Source: Methylocystis sp. SC2 (GTDB taxonomy: Bacteria > Pseudomonadota > Alphaproteobacteria > Rhizobiales > Beijerinckiaceae). Taken from it: a DNA stretch of 64,000 bases. The stretch lies in the NCBI RefSeq assembly GCF_000304315.1, contig NC_018485.1, positions 342,501-406,500 on the forward strand. Direction: 5' to 3'. The notes under the pieces were generated by a model, which saw only the letters and a list, made by a program, of their open reading frames with translations, did no database searches and was not told where the DNA came from. The position numbers and the translations under genes were made by a program. How positions within the stretch are numbered: the first letter of the stretch is position 1; every line of letters begins with the position of its first letter. This document shows, one piece after another, positions 1 to 38,969 of this stretch.

Positions 1-777
1 GTCAATCTCGCGGTCAATGCGCGCGACGCCATGCCGAATGGGGGCAAGCTGACGATCGAGACGGCCAACTGCTTTCTCGATGACGCCTACGCCACCGAAA
101 ACATGGAAGTGACCCCCGGCCAATATGTGATGATCGCCGTGACCGACACCGGTCAAGGCATGCCGCCCGAAGTCTTGTCGCAGGCGTTCGATCCGTTCTT
201 CACCACCAAGCCCACAGGCAAGGGCACGGGACTCGGCCTCTCGCAGGTGCATGGATTCGTCAAACAATCTGGCGGCCACGTCAAAATCTATTCCGAACCC
301 GAGCGCGGAACCTGCATCAAGCTCTATCTGCCGCGCTTCAATCACGTCGAAGCGCCCGCCGAAGCGCCCCTCCCGCGTTCTCGACCTCTCGAACTTCCGC
401 TTGGAAGGCCCGAAGAACTTGTGCTCATCGTCGAAGATGACGACACGGCGCGCCGGGTGACCGCGCAGGGCGTGCGAGAATTGGGCTATTCGGTTGTCGA
501 GGCCGAGAACGGACGCGAGGCGATCGACATAATTCGCCGACGCGCCGACATCGCGCTGATGGTTACGGATGTGGTCATGCCCGATATGGACGGCGCCCGA
601 CTCGCGCGCGAAGCGGTGTTTCGCCGACACAGCCTGCGCGTTCTGTTCATCACCGGCTACACGCGCAACGCCATCGTGCACAACGGCGTTCTCGACAAGG
701 ACGTCAAGCTGCTCACCAAACCGTTCACCTTGGAGCAGCTTGCGGTCAAGATGCGGGAGATTCTGGATTCGCGATAG
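1..777 (+). CDS. hybrid sensor histidine kinase, C-terminal part (HATPase + receiver)
   Basis: The reading frame is open from base 1, so the start lies outside the window and only the last 258 residues are present. They begin inside the N box (VNLAVNARDAM), followed by the ATP-lid motifs DTGQGM (about residue 49) and GTGLGL (about 75). After a proline-rich linker there is a receiver domain with its acidic pocket EDDD (about 145), phospho-acceptor Asp in VTDVVMPD (about 190), Thr in ITGYT and Lys in TKPF (about 240). The enzyme would autophosphorylate on an unseen His and pass phosphate to its own receiver. The ATPase region closely resembles that of the kinase at 13.5–15.1 kb (shared FVKQSGGHV stretch), so the two are probably paralogues. 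The input signal cannot be judged. Confidence 0.93.
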   Translation, partial: VNLAVNARDAMPNGGKLTIETANCFLDDAYATENMEVTPGQYVMIAVTDTGQGMPPEVLSQAFDPFFTTKPTGKGTGLGLSQVHGFVKQSGGHVKIYSEPERGTCIKLYLPRFNHVEAPAEAPLPRSRPLELPLGRPEELVLIVEDDDTARRVTAQGVRELGYSVVEAENGREAIDIIRRRADIALMVTDVVMPDMDGARLAREAVFRRHSLRVLFITGYTRNAIVHNGVLDKDVKLLTKPFTLEQLAVKMREILDSR

Positions 778-13222: not shown

Positions 13223-13513
13223 GCAGCGACATGTGGCGCCGAACGGGCGTGTCGTCTATCCGGCGCTATGGCTGAAAGGCACTCGCGCAAGCTGAACCAA
13301 TTTGCAGCGCATTGTGGGTGAGCAGCATTTCGACCGAAATGTTGCTGGGTGCCGCAGCGACAACGATCGTGCTAGGAAGATTAAAGCGGGGTCTCTCCTG
13401 GGGGGCAAAGGCACAGGCGCCATTAAAAGCATTCGCGCAAAGCAACGCTGAAGGCTTCGTCCGTCACGCGCTCAGCTCTCAATGCTTCGCAATACTTCTC
13501 TGGAGCTGGTTAC

Positions 13514-15088
13514 ATGCTGTCTGCACTGAGCGAGTGGCTCTTTGACACCTCTGGCCTGTCGCCGCATGGTTACTGCTTGCTGTGGGAACCGGGGCTGATC
13601 TGGCTCTATGCGGTTTCCGACGCCATTATCGCTCTGGCGTATTTCTCAATCCCCCTGACGCTCGTGATCGTGGGAAAGCGGAGGAGCGATCTCATATTTC
13701 GGCCGCTGTTATGGCTGTTTGCCGCGTTCATCCTGCTGTGCGGCATGACGCATCTGTTCGATCTTTTCACTCTCTGGACCCCGCTCTATGGCTTGCAGGG
13801 GCTCGTCAAAGCGGCGACTGCGATCGTCTCCGTCGCGACGGCGGTCGCGTTATGGTGGGCTATGCCGAATTTTCTCACCCTTCCTTCGATGGAGCAGCTA
13901 CGTCACGCTAATGCTGCGCTGCTCGCGAGCGAGGAGCGGCTGCTCCATGCGCAAAAAATGGAAGCGCTCGGCCAGCTGACCGGCGGCATCGCGCACGACT
14001 TCAATAATGTGCTTCAAGTCATCGTCGGTTCGCTTAATGTGATCGAGCGCCAGATTACGCTTGGGCGCGCGAACGCGATAGACCGGCCCCTGTCGGCGAT
14101 ACGGAAAGCGGCGACGACCGCCTCCAGCCTCACCAACCGCATGCTGGCCTTCTCGCGTCGACAGACGTTGTTGCCGCGAGAGATCGACCCCAACAAGCTC
14201 GTGGCAGGCATGGAGGAAATGCTGCGCCGAACGTTGGGGCCCGAAATCCATCTGGATCTAAGCTTGGGCTGCCGCTGGAGCGTGAGCTGCGATCCCTCCC
14301 AACTCGAGAGCGTCTTATTGAATCTCGCAATCAACGCTCGGGACGCCATGCCGCAAGGCGGCGTGCTCAGGATCGCGACCGCCGATCGGACGTTAGCGAG
14401 CGATTCTTCCGATCCCGATGTTGAGCCAGGAGACTATATTGAGATCGAGGTGACGGACAGCGGCGTGGGGATGAGTCATGATCTGCTCAGCCGCGTTTTC
14501 GAACCGTTTTTTACAACAAAGCCCCCGGGACAGGGGACGGGTTTGGGCCTGTCGCAGGTTTACGGCTTCGTCAAACAATCTGGCGGGCACGTGCGACTCG
14601 AAAGCGCCTCGGGCGAGGGGACCAGAGCGCTAATTTATCTGCCGGGACACGCTCTGCTTCCATACCCAGCCGCCAAAGACCAGCGGACGACCGGGATGAA
14701 ATTCGATTCCCCTTGCGCTGCGAAGCGAGGAAAAACCCTGGTCGTCGAGGATCAAGAGGAGGTGCGCTCTCTAATTGTCGGCGCCATCGCTGAAATGGGC
14801 TACAATACAATCGAAGCCGGCGATGGGACGGCAGGACTGAAAATAATAGAATCAGGCGAGCCGTTGTGCCTCTTGATCAGCGATGTTGGCCTTCCTGGGT
14901 TGGGCGGACTTCAATTGGCTGACGCCGCCCGAGCCGCGCAACCTGATCTGCCGATCCTGCTGATCACCGGATACGCGGGTAAATCGACGGAGACATTACA
15001 GCTGGCCCCGAATATGGAGCTTTTGCGCAAGCCCTTCACGCTCGATGAATTGGCCGAGAGGGTTCAGGCGATGTTCAAAGGGACCTGA
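13514..15088 (+). CDS. hybrid histidine kinase with ethylene-receptor-like membrane domain
   Basis: The 524-residue protein starts with three membrane helices (about residues 30–118) that match the ethylene-binding domain of plant ETR1 and cyanobacterial Etr1. It has SDAIIALAYFSIP with D36, Y43, I46 and P47, and LLCGMTHL with C76 and H80, the equivalents of the copper-binding Cys65/His69 of ETR1. There is no GAF domain. A short linker leads straight into a HisKA domain (H161 in GGIAHDFNN), a HATPase (N box 270–277, G boxes 314–320 and 341–346) and a receiver (phospho-Asp 457, Lys in RKPF). TGGAG precedes the ATG. It stands alone, with no response regulator beside it. Ethylene or another small unsaturated ligand bound through Cu(I) is the inferred input. 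Confidence 0.9.
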   Translation: MLSALSEWLFDTSGLSPHGYCLLWEPGLIWLYAVSDAIIALAYFSIPLTLVIVGKRRSDLIFRPLLWLFAAFILLCGMTHLFDLFTLWTPLYGLQGLVKAATAIVSVATAVALWWAMPNFLTLPSMEQLRHANAALLASEERLLHAQKMEALGQLTGGIAHDFNNVLQVIVGSLNVIERQITLGRANAIDRPLSAIRKAATTASSLTNRMLAFSRRQTLLPREIDPNKLVAGMEEMLRRTLGPEIHLDLSLGCRWSVSCDPSQLESVLLNLAINARDAMPQGGVLRIATADRTLASDSSDPDVEPGDYIEIEVTDSGVGMSHDLLSRVFEPFFTTKPPGQGTGLGLSQVYGFVKQSGGHVRLESASGEGTRALIYLPGHALLPYPAAKDQRTTGMKFDSPCAAKRGKTLVVEDQEEVRSLIVGAIAEMGYNTIEAGDGTAGLKIIESGEPLCLLISDVGLPGLGGLQLADAARAAQPDLPILLITGYAGKSTETLQLAPNMELLRKPFTLDELAERVQAMFKGT

Positions 15089-15151
15089 GTGACCCGACTT
15101 GCGACGCCGTCCACACGGCGCTGAGTCAGGATGCTTCCCGCCGCAAGCGCG

Positions 15152-18099: not shown

Positions 18100-18112
18100 C
18101 CCATGCCTGTTT

Positions 18113-18142
18113 TTGACATACAGACATATAGACGTTATGTCA
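18113..18142 (+). promoter_or_regulatory. vapBC promoter overlapped by an operator-like inverted repeat
   Basis: TTGACA (18113–18118) is separated by exactly 17 bases from TATGTC (18136–18141), a good sigma-70-type spacing. The same span forms an inverted repeat, TGACATA (18114–18120) and TATGTCA (18136–18142), covering both promoter boxes. VapB-type antitoxins repress their own operon by binding such palindromes, so autoregulation is inferred. The expected transcription start, about 18148, coincides with the GTG start of the antitoxin, which would make the message leaderless. Confidence 0.6.
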
Positions 18143-18147
18143 CTCGT

Positions 18148-18438
18148 GTGACTGAACGAACCACCGTCCGCCTTCCAGAGGATCTCCTGCGTCGCGCGCG
18201 CCAAAGAGCGGCGGCCGATGATCGCACCTTGACGTCGATGATCGAGGAAGGTCTTCGCCTTGTCCTTGCGGGAGAACGGCACGCCTCGCCGACGCCGCCT
18301 CGCTACGCGCGGATTAGCCTGGAGACGGGAGGCCCCGCGAGAGGCGTAGATTTTCCCAGATTGCGCGATGTCGACGAGCAGGACGACATCGAGCGCCATG
18401 AGCGCCTCAAATCGCAATATAGCCGTTCAGAAAATTGA
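18148..18438 (+). CDS. vapB: VapB-type ribbon-helix-helix antitoxin
   Basis: The N-terminus (ERTTVRLPEDLLRRARQRAAADDRTLTSMIEEGLRLVL, split over residues 3–41) is a ribbon-helix-helix DNA-binding fold. The C-terminal half would wrap and block the VapC toxin. A frame starting at 18103 exists, but it begins before the promoter and beside the upstream terminator, so the GTG at 18148 is chosen (96 residues). Its TGA overlaps the TTG start of vapC (TTGA). Function in toxin neutralisation and self-repression follows from the family. Confidence 0.85.
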   Translation: MTERTTVRLPEDLLRRARQRAAADDRTLTSMIEEGLRLVLAGERHASPTPPRYARISLETGGPARGVDFPRLRDVDEQDDIERHERLKSQYSRSEN

Positions 18439-18857
18439 ATCTAGCCGATGTCAATGTGCTCGTAGAGGCGTTTCGAGCCGATGCGCCTCGTCATGCACAT
18501 TGTCGGAGATGGCTTGATGACGCTTTCGATAGCCGCGCGCCATTTGCTGTATCACGCCTCGTTTTGAGCGCAGTCGTACGGATTACAACCAGCACGAGGT
18601 TCTATCAATCGCCGAGCTCCCTTGACGAAGCGTTCGGCTTTTGCGCGGACATTCTCGCGCAGCATAATTGTCGTCTCGTCGAGCCAGGCGACGGCCATTG
18701 GCGAATTTTTGAGCGCCTCTGTCTCGAGACGCAGACGCGCGGACCCATGGTGACGGACGCCTGGTTCGCTGCGCTCGCCATCGAGTGGGATTGCGAGTGG
18801 ATTACGCTCGACCGCGATTTCGCGCGCTTTCCGGGTCTGCGATGGCGCGCGCCGTAA
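18435..18857 (+). CDS. vapC: VapC-type PIN-domain ribonuclease toxin
   Basis: The 140-residue product is a PIN-domain protein with D5 (LADVNVLVEAF), D108 (MVTDAWFAALAIE) and D126/D128 (TLDRDFARFPGLRW) for magnesium binding. The closing FPGLRW stretch is typical of one VapC subfamily. VapC toxins cut tRNAs or rRNA and stop translation until neutralised by VapB. TTG is the only start that keeps the conserved N-terminus, and it overlaps the vapB stop. The exact RNA target is unknown. Confidence 0.9.
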   Translation: MNLADVNVLVEAFRADAPRHAHCRRWLDDAFDSRAPFAVSRLVLSAVVRITTSTRFYQSPSSLDEAFGFCADILAQHNCRLVEPGDGHWRIFERLCLETQTRGPMVTDAWFAALAIEWDCEWITLDRDFARFPGLRWRAP

Positions 18858-36422: not shown

Positions 36423-37724
36423 CTATTCTTCGTAGACGACTGCGCCCCCGACGATGGTCGTCCTGACCACGCCCTGCAGCAGCGCCCCATCGAACGGGGT
36501 GTTCTTGGAGCGCGAGTGGAGCGCTCCGGGATCGACGACGAAGGGCGCGTCAGGATCGAAACGGATGATGTCCGCCGGGGCGCCTTTCTGCAGCCTGCCC
36601 TGCCGCAATCCCAGAATTTCCGCCGGGCGCGACGTCATCGCTTCGAGCAGACGCGTCAGCGGGACGTCGCCCGAATGCACGAGCCGAAGTCCCGCCGCGA
36701 GCATCGTTTCGAGGCCGATCGCCCCATATTCGGCTTCCGCGAAAGGCAGCCGTTTGGTTTCGACGTCCTGCGGGTCATGGTCGGAGACGATGACGTCGAT
36801 CAGGCCTTCGCCCAGCGCGCCAACGAGCGCCTTACGTTCATCCTCATGGCGCAAGGGCGGTCGGAGCTTGAGGAAGGTGCGGTAGTCGCCGATGTCGTTC
36901 TCGTTCAGCGTCAGATGATTGATCGAGGTCCCGCAGGTGACGGCCAAGCCCTCGTCCTTGGCTCTGCGCAATGCGTCCAGCGCAAGCGTCGTCGTCACGA
37001 TCGCCGAGTGATAGCGCGCGCCGGTCAGCGCGACGAGCCGCAAGTCGCGATCGAGCATGATCGCCTCCGCTTCACGCGGCGCGCCGGATAGGCCGAGCCG
37101 AAGCGCAAATTCGCCTTCGTTCATGACGCCGACGGAAAGGTCGGGGTCTTGGGCGAAATGAATGACGAGCGCATCGAAATCGCGCGCATAGGTGAGCGCG
37201 CGCCGCATGACGAGCGCGCTTCGCACCGAGCGCGCGCCGTCGCAGAAGGCCACCGCGCCCGCCTGCCGCAGCAGCCCCAGCTCGGCGATCTCCTTGCCCT
37301 CGCGGCCTCTGGTCAGCGCCGCCATCGGCGCGACGCGGACGCGCCCGGTGTCGCGCGCACGGCGCAAAACGAAATCGACGACGGCGGGGTCGTCGACGGG
37401 CGGCGCCGTCGCCGCGGTCGACACGATTGTCGTCACGCCGCCCGCCGCGGCCGCGAGAGTCGCGCTGGCGATGGTTTCGCGATGCTCCGCCCCCGGCTCG
37501 CCGACGAAGGCCTGCATGTCGATGAGGCCCGGCGCGACCACGTCGCCGGCGCAGTCGATGACGCGCGCGCCTTCGGGAGCGTCGCCCTGTCGAACGGATT
37601 CGCCGAGCTCCGCGATGACCCCGTTTATCGTCGCCAGACCGCCGCGCATTTGGCGACCCGAGCCGGGATCAATCAGCCTTGCGTTGAGAAGGAACAGCGG
37701 CGCTGGAGCTTGTGGCGGCGACAT
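36423..37724 (-). CDS. pyrC: dihydroorotase-like protein without the metal-binding HxH (non-catalytic PyrC)
   Basis: The 433-residue amidohydrolase-fold protein aligns with class I dihydroorotase: GLIDMQAFVGEPG (66–78), GGVTTIVSTAATAPPVDDP, VSDHDPQDVETKRLPF and ADIIRFDPDAPFVVD. The metal-binding HxH after GLIDM is replaced by Q71 and F73, and the carboxylated-lysine region is not convincing, so it is probably inactive. Non-catalytic dihydroorotases of this kind are known to associate with aspartate carbamoyltransferase. However, pyrB is not upstream here, and no plsY follows either. An active dihydroorotase would need to be encoded elsewhere. Confidence 0.85.
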   Translation of the reverse strand: MSPPQAPAPLFLLNARLIDPGSGRQMRGGLATINGVIAELGESVRQGDAPEGARVIDCAGDVVAPGLIDMQAFVGEPGAEHRETIASATLAAAAGGVTTIVSTAATAPPVDDPAVVDFVLRRARDTGRVRVAPMAALTRGREGKEIAELGLLRQAGAVAFCDGARSVRSALVMRRALTYARDFDALVIHFAQDPDLSVGVMNEGEFALRLGLSGAPREAEAIMLDRDLRLVALTGARYHSAIVTTTLALDALRRAKDEGLAVTCGTSINHLTLNENDIGDYRTFLKLRPPLRHEDERKALVGALGEGLIDVIVSDHDPQDVETKRLPFAEAEYGAIGLETMLAAGLRLVHSGDVPLTRLLEAMTSRPAEILGLRQGRLQKGAPADIIRFDPDAPFVVDPGALHSRSKNTPFDGALLQGVVRTTIVGGAVVYEE

Positions 37725-37859
37725 GGCGTCTGCTTAGGCCATTTCTCGGACGTTGAAAATGCGCCCGGGCCACGGGATATTGGGGTTGAACTCGTCCCGG
37801 CAGCGCCTAGCTACCGCGAGTTGGGGCTACGAGCGGCGCGTGCGCCCCTGGGAGAACGT

Positions 37860-38969
37860 ATGCGTTCCCTCAGCCCTCCAGAATCTCCTCTCGCGCCAAA
37901 TTTGGCGGGAGGCGAAGGACGCCCTGATCTTCCGGCGATGATGAACGCCGCCTTCGACGGAATCATCGCGCTCGACGAGCGCGGCGCGGTGCGCTCCATC
38001 AGCGCCGAGGCGGCGTCGCTGTTCGGCTACGCGCCTGGCGACGTCATCGGACGGGATTTCAGCATGCTGACGGCGGAGGCGAGCCAACGTCGCCGCGACG
38101 ATCTGCGCCGGGGACCGCCAAGCATTCGCCGACGGATCGACGGCTTGCGCGAGGACGGCTCCGTCTTTCCCGTGGAGCTCGTCGTCAGCGAAGTCGCCTG
38201 CGACGGAGAACGGCTGTTTATCGCTTTGGTCCGCGATCTCAGCTCCAGGCGCAGCTTCGAGCAGGGGGTTCAGGAGCTTCAGGCCAACCGCCTTGAACTG
38301 ATTGAGAATATGGCGGCCGGATTGGCGCATGAGCTGAAGCAGCCTTTGACGGCCATCGGCGCCTATCTCAATTTCGCGCGTCGGCGTCTGAACGAAAAAG
38401 TCCTCTCGATCGAGAAGGTCGAGGAGATGTTGGACAACGCCGATGCGCAAGTCTTTCGCGTCGCGGAAATCATGGACAATCTTCGCCAGTTCATCGCGCG
38501 CGGAGAAACCTCGAAAGCTCCCCAAAGTCTGAACGCCGTCATCCGAACCGCCTGCGAATTCACCGATGCGCTGGCCAAGGAACATCATGTCAAAACCGCG
38601 ATCGACCTCGAAGCGTCGCCGGACACGGTGGTGATCAACAAAGTTCAGATTCAGCAGGTCGTCGTCAATCTTAAGCGCAACGCCGTCGAGGCGATGCAAG
38701 ACAGCGAGCGGCGCGAGATGAGGGTGTCGACTCGGCTCGTTGGAGGCAATCTCATTCGCGCCGATGTCGCGGACACCGGGCCTGGATTGCCCGAGGAGAT
38801 CAAAGACAGGCTCTTCGAGCAGTTCACGACGACGAAGCCGCACGGTCTGGGCGTCGGACTCTCCATTTCGCGCTCGATCGTCGAAGCGCATAACGGGAAG
38901 ATCTGGGCGGAGCCCAACCCCGGGGGCGGAACCATCTTCAGCTTCGTATTGCCTCTGGAACATCGCTGA
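37860..38969 (+). CDS. PAS-domain sensor histidine kinase (FixL-like, no heme ligand seen)
   Basis: The 369-residue soluble kinase has an N-terminal PAS domain (about 25–130; GIIALDERGAVRSISAEAASLFGY, REDGSVFPVELVVSEV, FIALVRDLSSRR). It then has a FixL/DctB-type HisKA domain (H157 in GLAHELKQPLTAIGAYL) and HATPase (VVNLKRNAVEAM, DTGPGLPEE, GLGVGLSISRSIVEAHNGKIW). The segment where FixL carries its heme-binding His (before the RxxGxRxDG strand) is shortened and has no His, so oxygen sensing through heme is unlikely. ATG 37860 has GGGAGA five bases ahead. It has no adjacent response regulator and is divergent from pyrC. Confidence 0.9.
   Translation: MRSLSPPESPLAPNLAGGEGRPDLPAMMNAAFDGIIALDERGAVRSISAEAASLFGYAPGDVIGRDFSMLTAEASQRRRDDLRRGPPSIRRRIDGLREDGSVFPVELVVSEVACDGERLFIALVRDLSSRRSFEQGVQELQANRLELIENMAAGLAHELKQPLTAIGAYLNFARRRLNEKVLSIEKVEEMLDNADAQVFRVAEIMDNLRQFIARGETSKAPQSLNAVIRTACEFTDALAKEHHVKTAIDLEASPDTVVINKVQIQQVVVNLKRNAVEAMQDSERREMRVSTRLVGGNLIRADVADTGPGLPEEIKDRLFEQFTTTKPHGLGVGLSISRSIVEAHNGKIWAEPNPGGGTIFSFVLPLEHR

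Follow-up and report, generated by a model that had tools for sequence, protein, structure and literature searches.

The open reading frame at positions 13514-15088 (plus strand, ATG start) of the window, a stretch of 64,000 nucleotides from the chromosome of Methylocystis sp. SC2, encodes a hybrid histidine kinase of 524 amino acids which, judging from its sequence, probably belongs with the bacterial ethylene receptors of the AzoEtr1/ETR1 kind. Its N-terminal domain holds the complete set of ethylene- and copper-site residues, whose identity with those of a proven receptor gives good support to the sensor step; the later steps of signalling are proposed here as a model. The ethylene-receptor family as such is already known, since numerous such genes in proteobacteria and cyanobacteria are noted in a review, in the text available, and the 524-residue kinase is a sound addition to it, with a short design in which no recognised domain lies between sensor and kinase. 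No title or abstract opening among the literature matches listed dealt with an ethylene receptor in a methanotroph, in a search that reached the smaller part of the subscription-journal literature. As far as its available text goes, the paper containing both 'Methylocystis' and 'ethylene receptor' concerns expression of pMMO in plants, and of three containing 'methanotroph' and 'ethylene receptor', the one checked was about plant signalling.

The ethylene-receptor-type domain and its predicted copper site

Residues 28-123 (13595-13882, plus strand) form an ETR1_N ethylene-binding domain with three membrane helices (Pfam PF25487, E = 2e-36, 124.6 bits against a curated cut-off of 27). A profile search of the genome placed the same domain at 356095-356382 of the chromosome, which is window 13595-13882, as the single match (E <= 0.001) in the whole 3,773,444-base chromosome (one contig), and none of 14 control genomes gave a match. 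The predicted structure has N-terminal helices at residues 26-56, 63-86 and 92-121, followed by a long helix (126-182) that runs into the kinase; confidence in this model is moderate (pLDDT 72.4, pTM 0.38), and it does not give the copper geometry. Hydropathy displays two strong peaks and one weaker in the N-terminus, which together with the model makes three helices. For the ETR1_N domain, no solved structure was found by sequence at E <= 10, and the 50 Foldseek matches listed for the full model are all histidine kinases or chimeric forms of such kinases.

Within the domain lie D36, Y43, I46, P47, I73, C76, H80 and K99. The C76-x3-H80 pair (codons 76-80, 13739-13753, plus strand) supplies the predicted Cu(I) ligands by alignment to C75 and H79 of the AzoEtr1 orthologue, and is invariant in an alignment of 29 sequences. 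The original prediction had named D36, Y43, I46-P47, and C76/H80 within LLCGMTHL as evidence of an intact site; the translation and the alignment to the AzoEtr1 orthologue place every one of them as it described. It did not list I73 and K99, the first of which fills up the seven residues of the AtETR1 type. All eight correspond one to one and at equal spacing to D35, Y42, I45, P46, I72, C75, H79 and K98 of the AzoEtr1 orthologue, with identity at 64 of 124 aligned positions over residues 1-125. It should be noted that this orthologue is a plasmid gene of Azospirillum brasilense strain 2020WEIHUA_K, which differs from the strain assayed in PMC11819568. Its ORF encodes 525 amino acids and has D35, C75, H79 and K98, agreeing with the available text of that paper, whose cloning primer, translated by eye, likewise fits the start of the protein. 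According to the same text, AzoEtr1(1-130) produced in yeast binds 14C-ethylene, D35, C75, H79 and K98 being named, along with D25, C65, H69 and K91 of ETR1. Ethylene binding by AtETR1 is stated to need seven residues (PMC11819568, PMC6682694, available text).

Conservation was followed in a joint alignment of the 524-residue kinase (P0001), 120 homologues (the best 120 of 7998 scored, 59-92% identical to it) and 108 genome loci. The full set of eight is present in 119 of the 121 proteins and at 88 of the 108 loci. P0090 and P0114, the two proteins without it, have no N-terminus; in P0090, position 73 is C and position 76 is S, inside a foreign start. Both C76 and H80 are retained in 99 of the 108 loci; one or both are lost in the other nine (L111, L183, L186-L191, L193), eight of which are weak matches. 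The ninth, L111 (1423-2550), is a strong ETR1_N relative (112.7 bits in the custom profile), yet C76 is replaced by T and Y43 by F, so a high family score does not guarantee an intact site; from its sequence, L111 is possibly a natural copper-less variant. P47 is replaced by S in four sequences (L141, L172, L173 and L174). The 108 loci represent 107 genes (L140 and L144 being one gene of G495) and exclude L192 and L194, which have no match to the custom domain profile. Also kept out of the counts was a scan of genome contigs whose top 80 stretches, out of a total of at least 595, were mostly kinase halves without the sensor.

The kinase half and a proposed signalling route

Downstream of the sensor, the HisKA dimerisation and phosphoacceptor domain with H161 (residues 152-217, 13967-14164, plus strand) scores just below its cut-off (26.7 against 26.9 bits), and HisKA is reported for most of the 120 homologues. 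It is followed by an HATPase_c domain with N274, D315, G317 and G319 (residues 260-377, 14291-14644, plus strand; Pfam 6e-20) and a receiver domain with E412, D413, D457, T485 and K506 (residues 409-518, 14738-15067, plus strand; Pfam 1e-13). H161, N274, D315, G317, G319, D457, T485 and K506 are invariant in the 29 sequences, leaving the kinase and receiver residues of a hybrid kinase intact. The nearest solved kinase core is that of Caulobacter CckA (PDB 5idj, 5idm; E = 8e-49 over residues 145-378), which is also nearest by Foldseek. The best NCBIfam matches, to the PRK13557 and CckA models, reach 314 and 284 bits against a cut-off of 1000. We therefore regard the kinase half as CckA-like and reject the protein as a CckA orthologue, its scores lying far under the equivalog cut-off; an 843-residue frame elsewhere is a likelier candidate for CckA. 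With contacts placed by spacing, W523 of CckA, which contacts c-di-GMP, corresponds to H359 here and to F in 19 of the 29 sequences. Since this residue is not kept, c-di-GMP control as in CckA is not supported.

That the sensor is fused without a GAF domain to a HisKA-HATPase-receiver chain, as originally described, agrees with the absence of any Pfam match to GAF or PAS at E <= 1, and the single long helix 126-182 of the model indicates that sensor and kinase are joined directly. The suggestion that the lack of GAF sets this protein apart from many bacterial receptors did not hold for its relatives. In a set of 55 ETR1_N proteins from this order and family, two had a match to GAF and one to GAF_3 (possibly the same protein), 21 to PAS_9 and 11 to the receiver, and in 33 further ETR1_N proteins GAF matched none and the receiver 11. 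With GAF models matching at most 3 of 55 and 0 of 33, its absence is ordinary here; GAF does occur in cyanobacterial receptors, and it is not defining for bacterial ones, given that the AzoEtr1 orthologue is also without it. Counts of C-terminal domains are lower bounds because some members are incomplete: ten of the 55 run off the end of their locus (L086, L087, L089, L090, L092, L093, L095, L102, L112 and L114), as does L165 of the 33, and L135 is a piece of 296 amino acids. The 55- and 33-member alignments leave out L140, L142, L144-L160 and L185. Two genomes provide further variation. G472 has three ETR1_N proteins, including one of 148 amino acids consisting of the domain alone and one of 1150 amino acids with PAS, receiver and Hpt (loci L141 and L143). 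The Methylocystis genome G495 holds a second copy of the receptor gene (L144, 8721-10284), which is probably broken near residue 322, where the match is split between two frames.

On the reading that we prefer, a bacterial ethylene receptor, the protein would act as a dimer whose three N-terminal helices bind Cu(I) by way of C76 and H80; D36 would position H80 and make contact with K99. Ethylene arriving at the copper would change the helix bundle, and this change could travel down helix 126-182 straight into the HisKA/HATPase core, altering, in one direction or the other, the autophosphorylation of H161 and the passage of phosphate to D457 in the protein's own receiver. Phosphate would then exit through an unlinked HPt-type protein towards the genes presumably regulated. 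The chromosome has one HPTransfase (ChpT-type) match and one Hpt match; the two proteins are phosphotransfer candidates and may serve this kinase. A promoter scan gave no promoter-like site, and terminator-like sites numbered 2 against 1.6 expected. Two other kinases share the window. At 1-777 (plus strand, extending left of the window), about 13 kb away, lies the C-terminal part, HATPase_c plus receiver, of a hybrid kinase paralogous to the receptor, with 43% identity to its residues 135-519; a separate histidine kinase with PAS, HisKA and HATPase_c is at 37149-38969 (plus strand).

Genomic setting, distribution and possible use

Pfam scans of ten neighbouring genes identified a TonB receptor, a cytochrome c, an AlkB-like 2OG-Fe(II) oxygenase, a histidine-phosphatase fold (gpmA), DapB, MoCF, DPBB, an ORF without a Pfam match, PIN and ThiC. 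Among these neighbours there is no partner response regulator, no known copper-homeostasis gene, apart perhaps from the TonB receptor, and no pmo or recognised epoxide gene. The PIN-domain ORF overlaps the small upstream ORF without a Pfam match, between DPBB (rlpA-like) and thiC (18103-18857, plus strand); the pair is likely a VapC-type toxin-antitoxin system, and it has a match in L150 and none in L148 or L153 at the same place.

The receptor gene lies between alkB and gpmA here and in G649, G603 and G567. In the 30 gpmA loci covered (of 39 genomes), it adjoins gpmA in four, alkB is close with no receptor between in 15, and in the remaining 11 the distance to alkB is larger or alkB does not show up in the sequence covered. 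In six near relatives whose GpmA is 99-100% identical, the site is empty, about 60-100 bases replacing the segment at approximately 13258-15147 (junctions read by eye). Receptor-free adjacency of alkB and gpmA is also seen in more distant species and in one genome of genus g176 (L159), and together with the six near relatives this makes gain at this site more likely than loss. The receptor is an orphan gene whose surroundings differ between lineages: no neighbour is universal, and frames recur in at most 5 of 21 places among the matches listed, receptor-overlapping frames aside. Its GC3 is 70%, against 76-83% in the six neighbours measured. Comparison with G654 gives 88% identity for the receptor and 85% for three core proteins, and with G618, G530 and G554 67-68% and 86%, respectively. 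G654 is also placed differently in two small trees (11 receptor and 11 core sequences), which is a hint of transfer only. Taken together, the empty sites, varied surroundings, GC3 and G654 identities suggest that the receptor gene has moved horizontally, and no phage copies of it were found.

The prediction had reasoned that a methanotroph would have cause to sense unsaturated gases. Its premise is borne out by three PF02461 (pmoA-type) matches in the chromosome; the link to methane monooxygenase is unproven. Of 397 genomes surveyed in the order, 64 have ETR1_N; among 397 family genomes, 74 have it and 51 have PF02461; order-survey matches without a locus were fetched only where the family survey also found them. 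The domain is present in 27 of 51 pmoA-bearing family genomes against 47 of 346 others (odds ratio 7.2, p = 2e-9), a count that ignores kinship and assumes that both family surveys drew the same 397 genomes. At genus level, the domain occurs in 20 of 43 genera, including all three with any PF02461 match (p = 0.09). Within Methylocystis it is found in 14 of 39 genomes (13 of 31 with pmoA against 1 of 8 without, p = 0.22) and has no match in 25; some of the latter are incomplete, but G238, G611 and G644, at 99-100% completeness, are also without it. In the pmoA-bearing genus g176, the receptor is carried by 9 of 10 genomes. Three g176 genomes (loci L157, L158 and L160) have it within about 6 kb of a shared gene set with 4-HFC-P synthase, FolB, flavoprotein, DUF447, DUF6513 and amino-acid-kinase domains, presumably genes of the methanopterin pathway. 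The exact PAS-free chain recurs at 50-59% identity in G437, G595, G506 and G460 (L163, L168, L170 and L171; genomes 78, 79, 87 and 82% complete), which belong to four genera and have no PF02461 match, nor was one found in any sampled genome of these genera. A methanotroph-specific role is thus not shown.

Ethylene would likely be used as an environmental cue, from plants, from soil or as a co-substrate of the cell's own methane monooxygenase, and two uses are open under the ethylene-receptor reading. The first, a general ethylene sensor acquired by horizontal transfer that serves association with plants or soil (biofilm, surface behaviour) and is independent of methane oxidation, has in our estimate not quite an even chance, and does not contradict the receptor reading. 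AzoEtr1 is tied to biofilm and root colonisation (PMC11819568, available text), and the four genera without pmoA matches, the 25 Methylocystis genomes without a match and the empty site in six close relatives all fit such a use; the near-constant presence of the receptor in g176 speaks against it.

The second use, alerting the cell to ethylene as a harmful pMMO co-substrate, is doubtful, and clearly less probable than the first. The association across family genomes favours it, and the available text of PMC11507031 reports inhibition by ethylene both of methanotrophs and of methane oxidation in soil (at 3-50 ppmv in forest soils) and that its co-oxidation yields toxic epoxyethane, to which Methylohalobius crimeensis responds. 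Against it stand the genus-level and within-Methylocystis values given above, the neighbours, none of which is a pmo or recognised epoxide gene, and the ethylene-induced cluster of M. crimeensis, which has a MEDS-type regulator, a different sensor (PMC11507031, available text). If the inhibition by ethylene is partly signalled rather than purely enzymatic, the receptor gene is the obvious place to test this, and close relatives in the genus naturally lack it. A more far-reaching idea would have Methylocystis and its relatives using a spreading PAS- and GAF-free receptor to detect the danger posed by ethylene as a co-substrate of methane monooxygenase and feed a ChpT-type phosphorelay, plant and soil ethylene thereby setting methane oxidation and growth; we consider this improbable.

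The ligand could also have changed while the residues stayed. The pMMO of methanotrophs needs copper, and the host has pmoA-type genes and an orphan receptor gene, so that the intact site might report copper supply, acetylene, carbon monoxide or another small ligand instead of ethylene; Cu(I) is an essential cofactor in plant receptors (PMC9603746, available text). We hold this to be unlikely, because 119 of 121 proteins retain the full ethylene-binding set, beyond the copper ligands, and the ten neighbours scanned in the window include no known copper-homeostasis gene, apart perhaps from the TonB receptor. Finally, a degenerate or mispredicted MASE-like membrane domain resembling ETR1_N by chance, for which the weak, degenerate-site matches in the relatives L183, L184, L186-L191 and L193 might speak, is rejected as scarcely credible: the domain here scores 124.6 bits with every residue in place and C76/H80 conserved among homologues, and no other membrane-sensor family matches the kinase at E <= 1.

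Comparison with known receptors

The seven residues of plant ETR1, D25, Y32, I35, P36, I62, C65 and H69, correspond at the same spacing to D36, Y43, I46, P47, I73, C76 and H80 of the Methylocystis kinase. Plant ETR1 has a GAF domain, whereas the 524-residue protein is without one and its kinase is of a prokaryotic, CckA-like kind. Caulobacter CckA itself has a sensor that differs from ETR1_N. The cyanobacterial receptors, compared here by description, are SynEtr1 of Synechocystis and GeiEtr1 and GeiEtr2 of Geitlerinema, which likewise combine an ethylene-binding domain at the N-terminus with a histidine kinase; GeiEtr1 and GeiEtr2 are stated to have all seven residues (PMC6682694, PMC7700396, available text). 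All three have GAF and some have PAS, SynEtr1 also being a light receptor, again on the available text, in contrast to the 524-residue kinase, which has neither domain. AzoEtr1 of A. brasilense shares the ETR1_N domain, with the seven residues and K98/K99 at equal spacing. According to the available text of PMC11819568, AzoEtr1 has a PAS domain and no receiver, a receiver-only partner being encoded just downstream, whereas the Methylocystis protein has neither PAS nor partner and carries its own fused receiver behind a CckA-like kinase.
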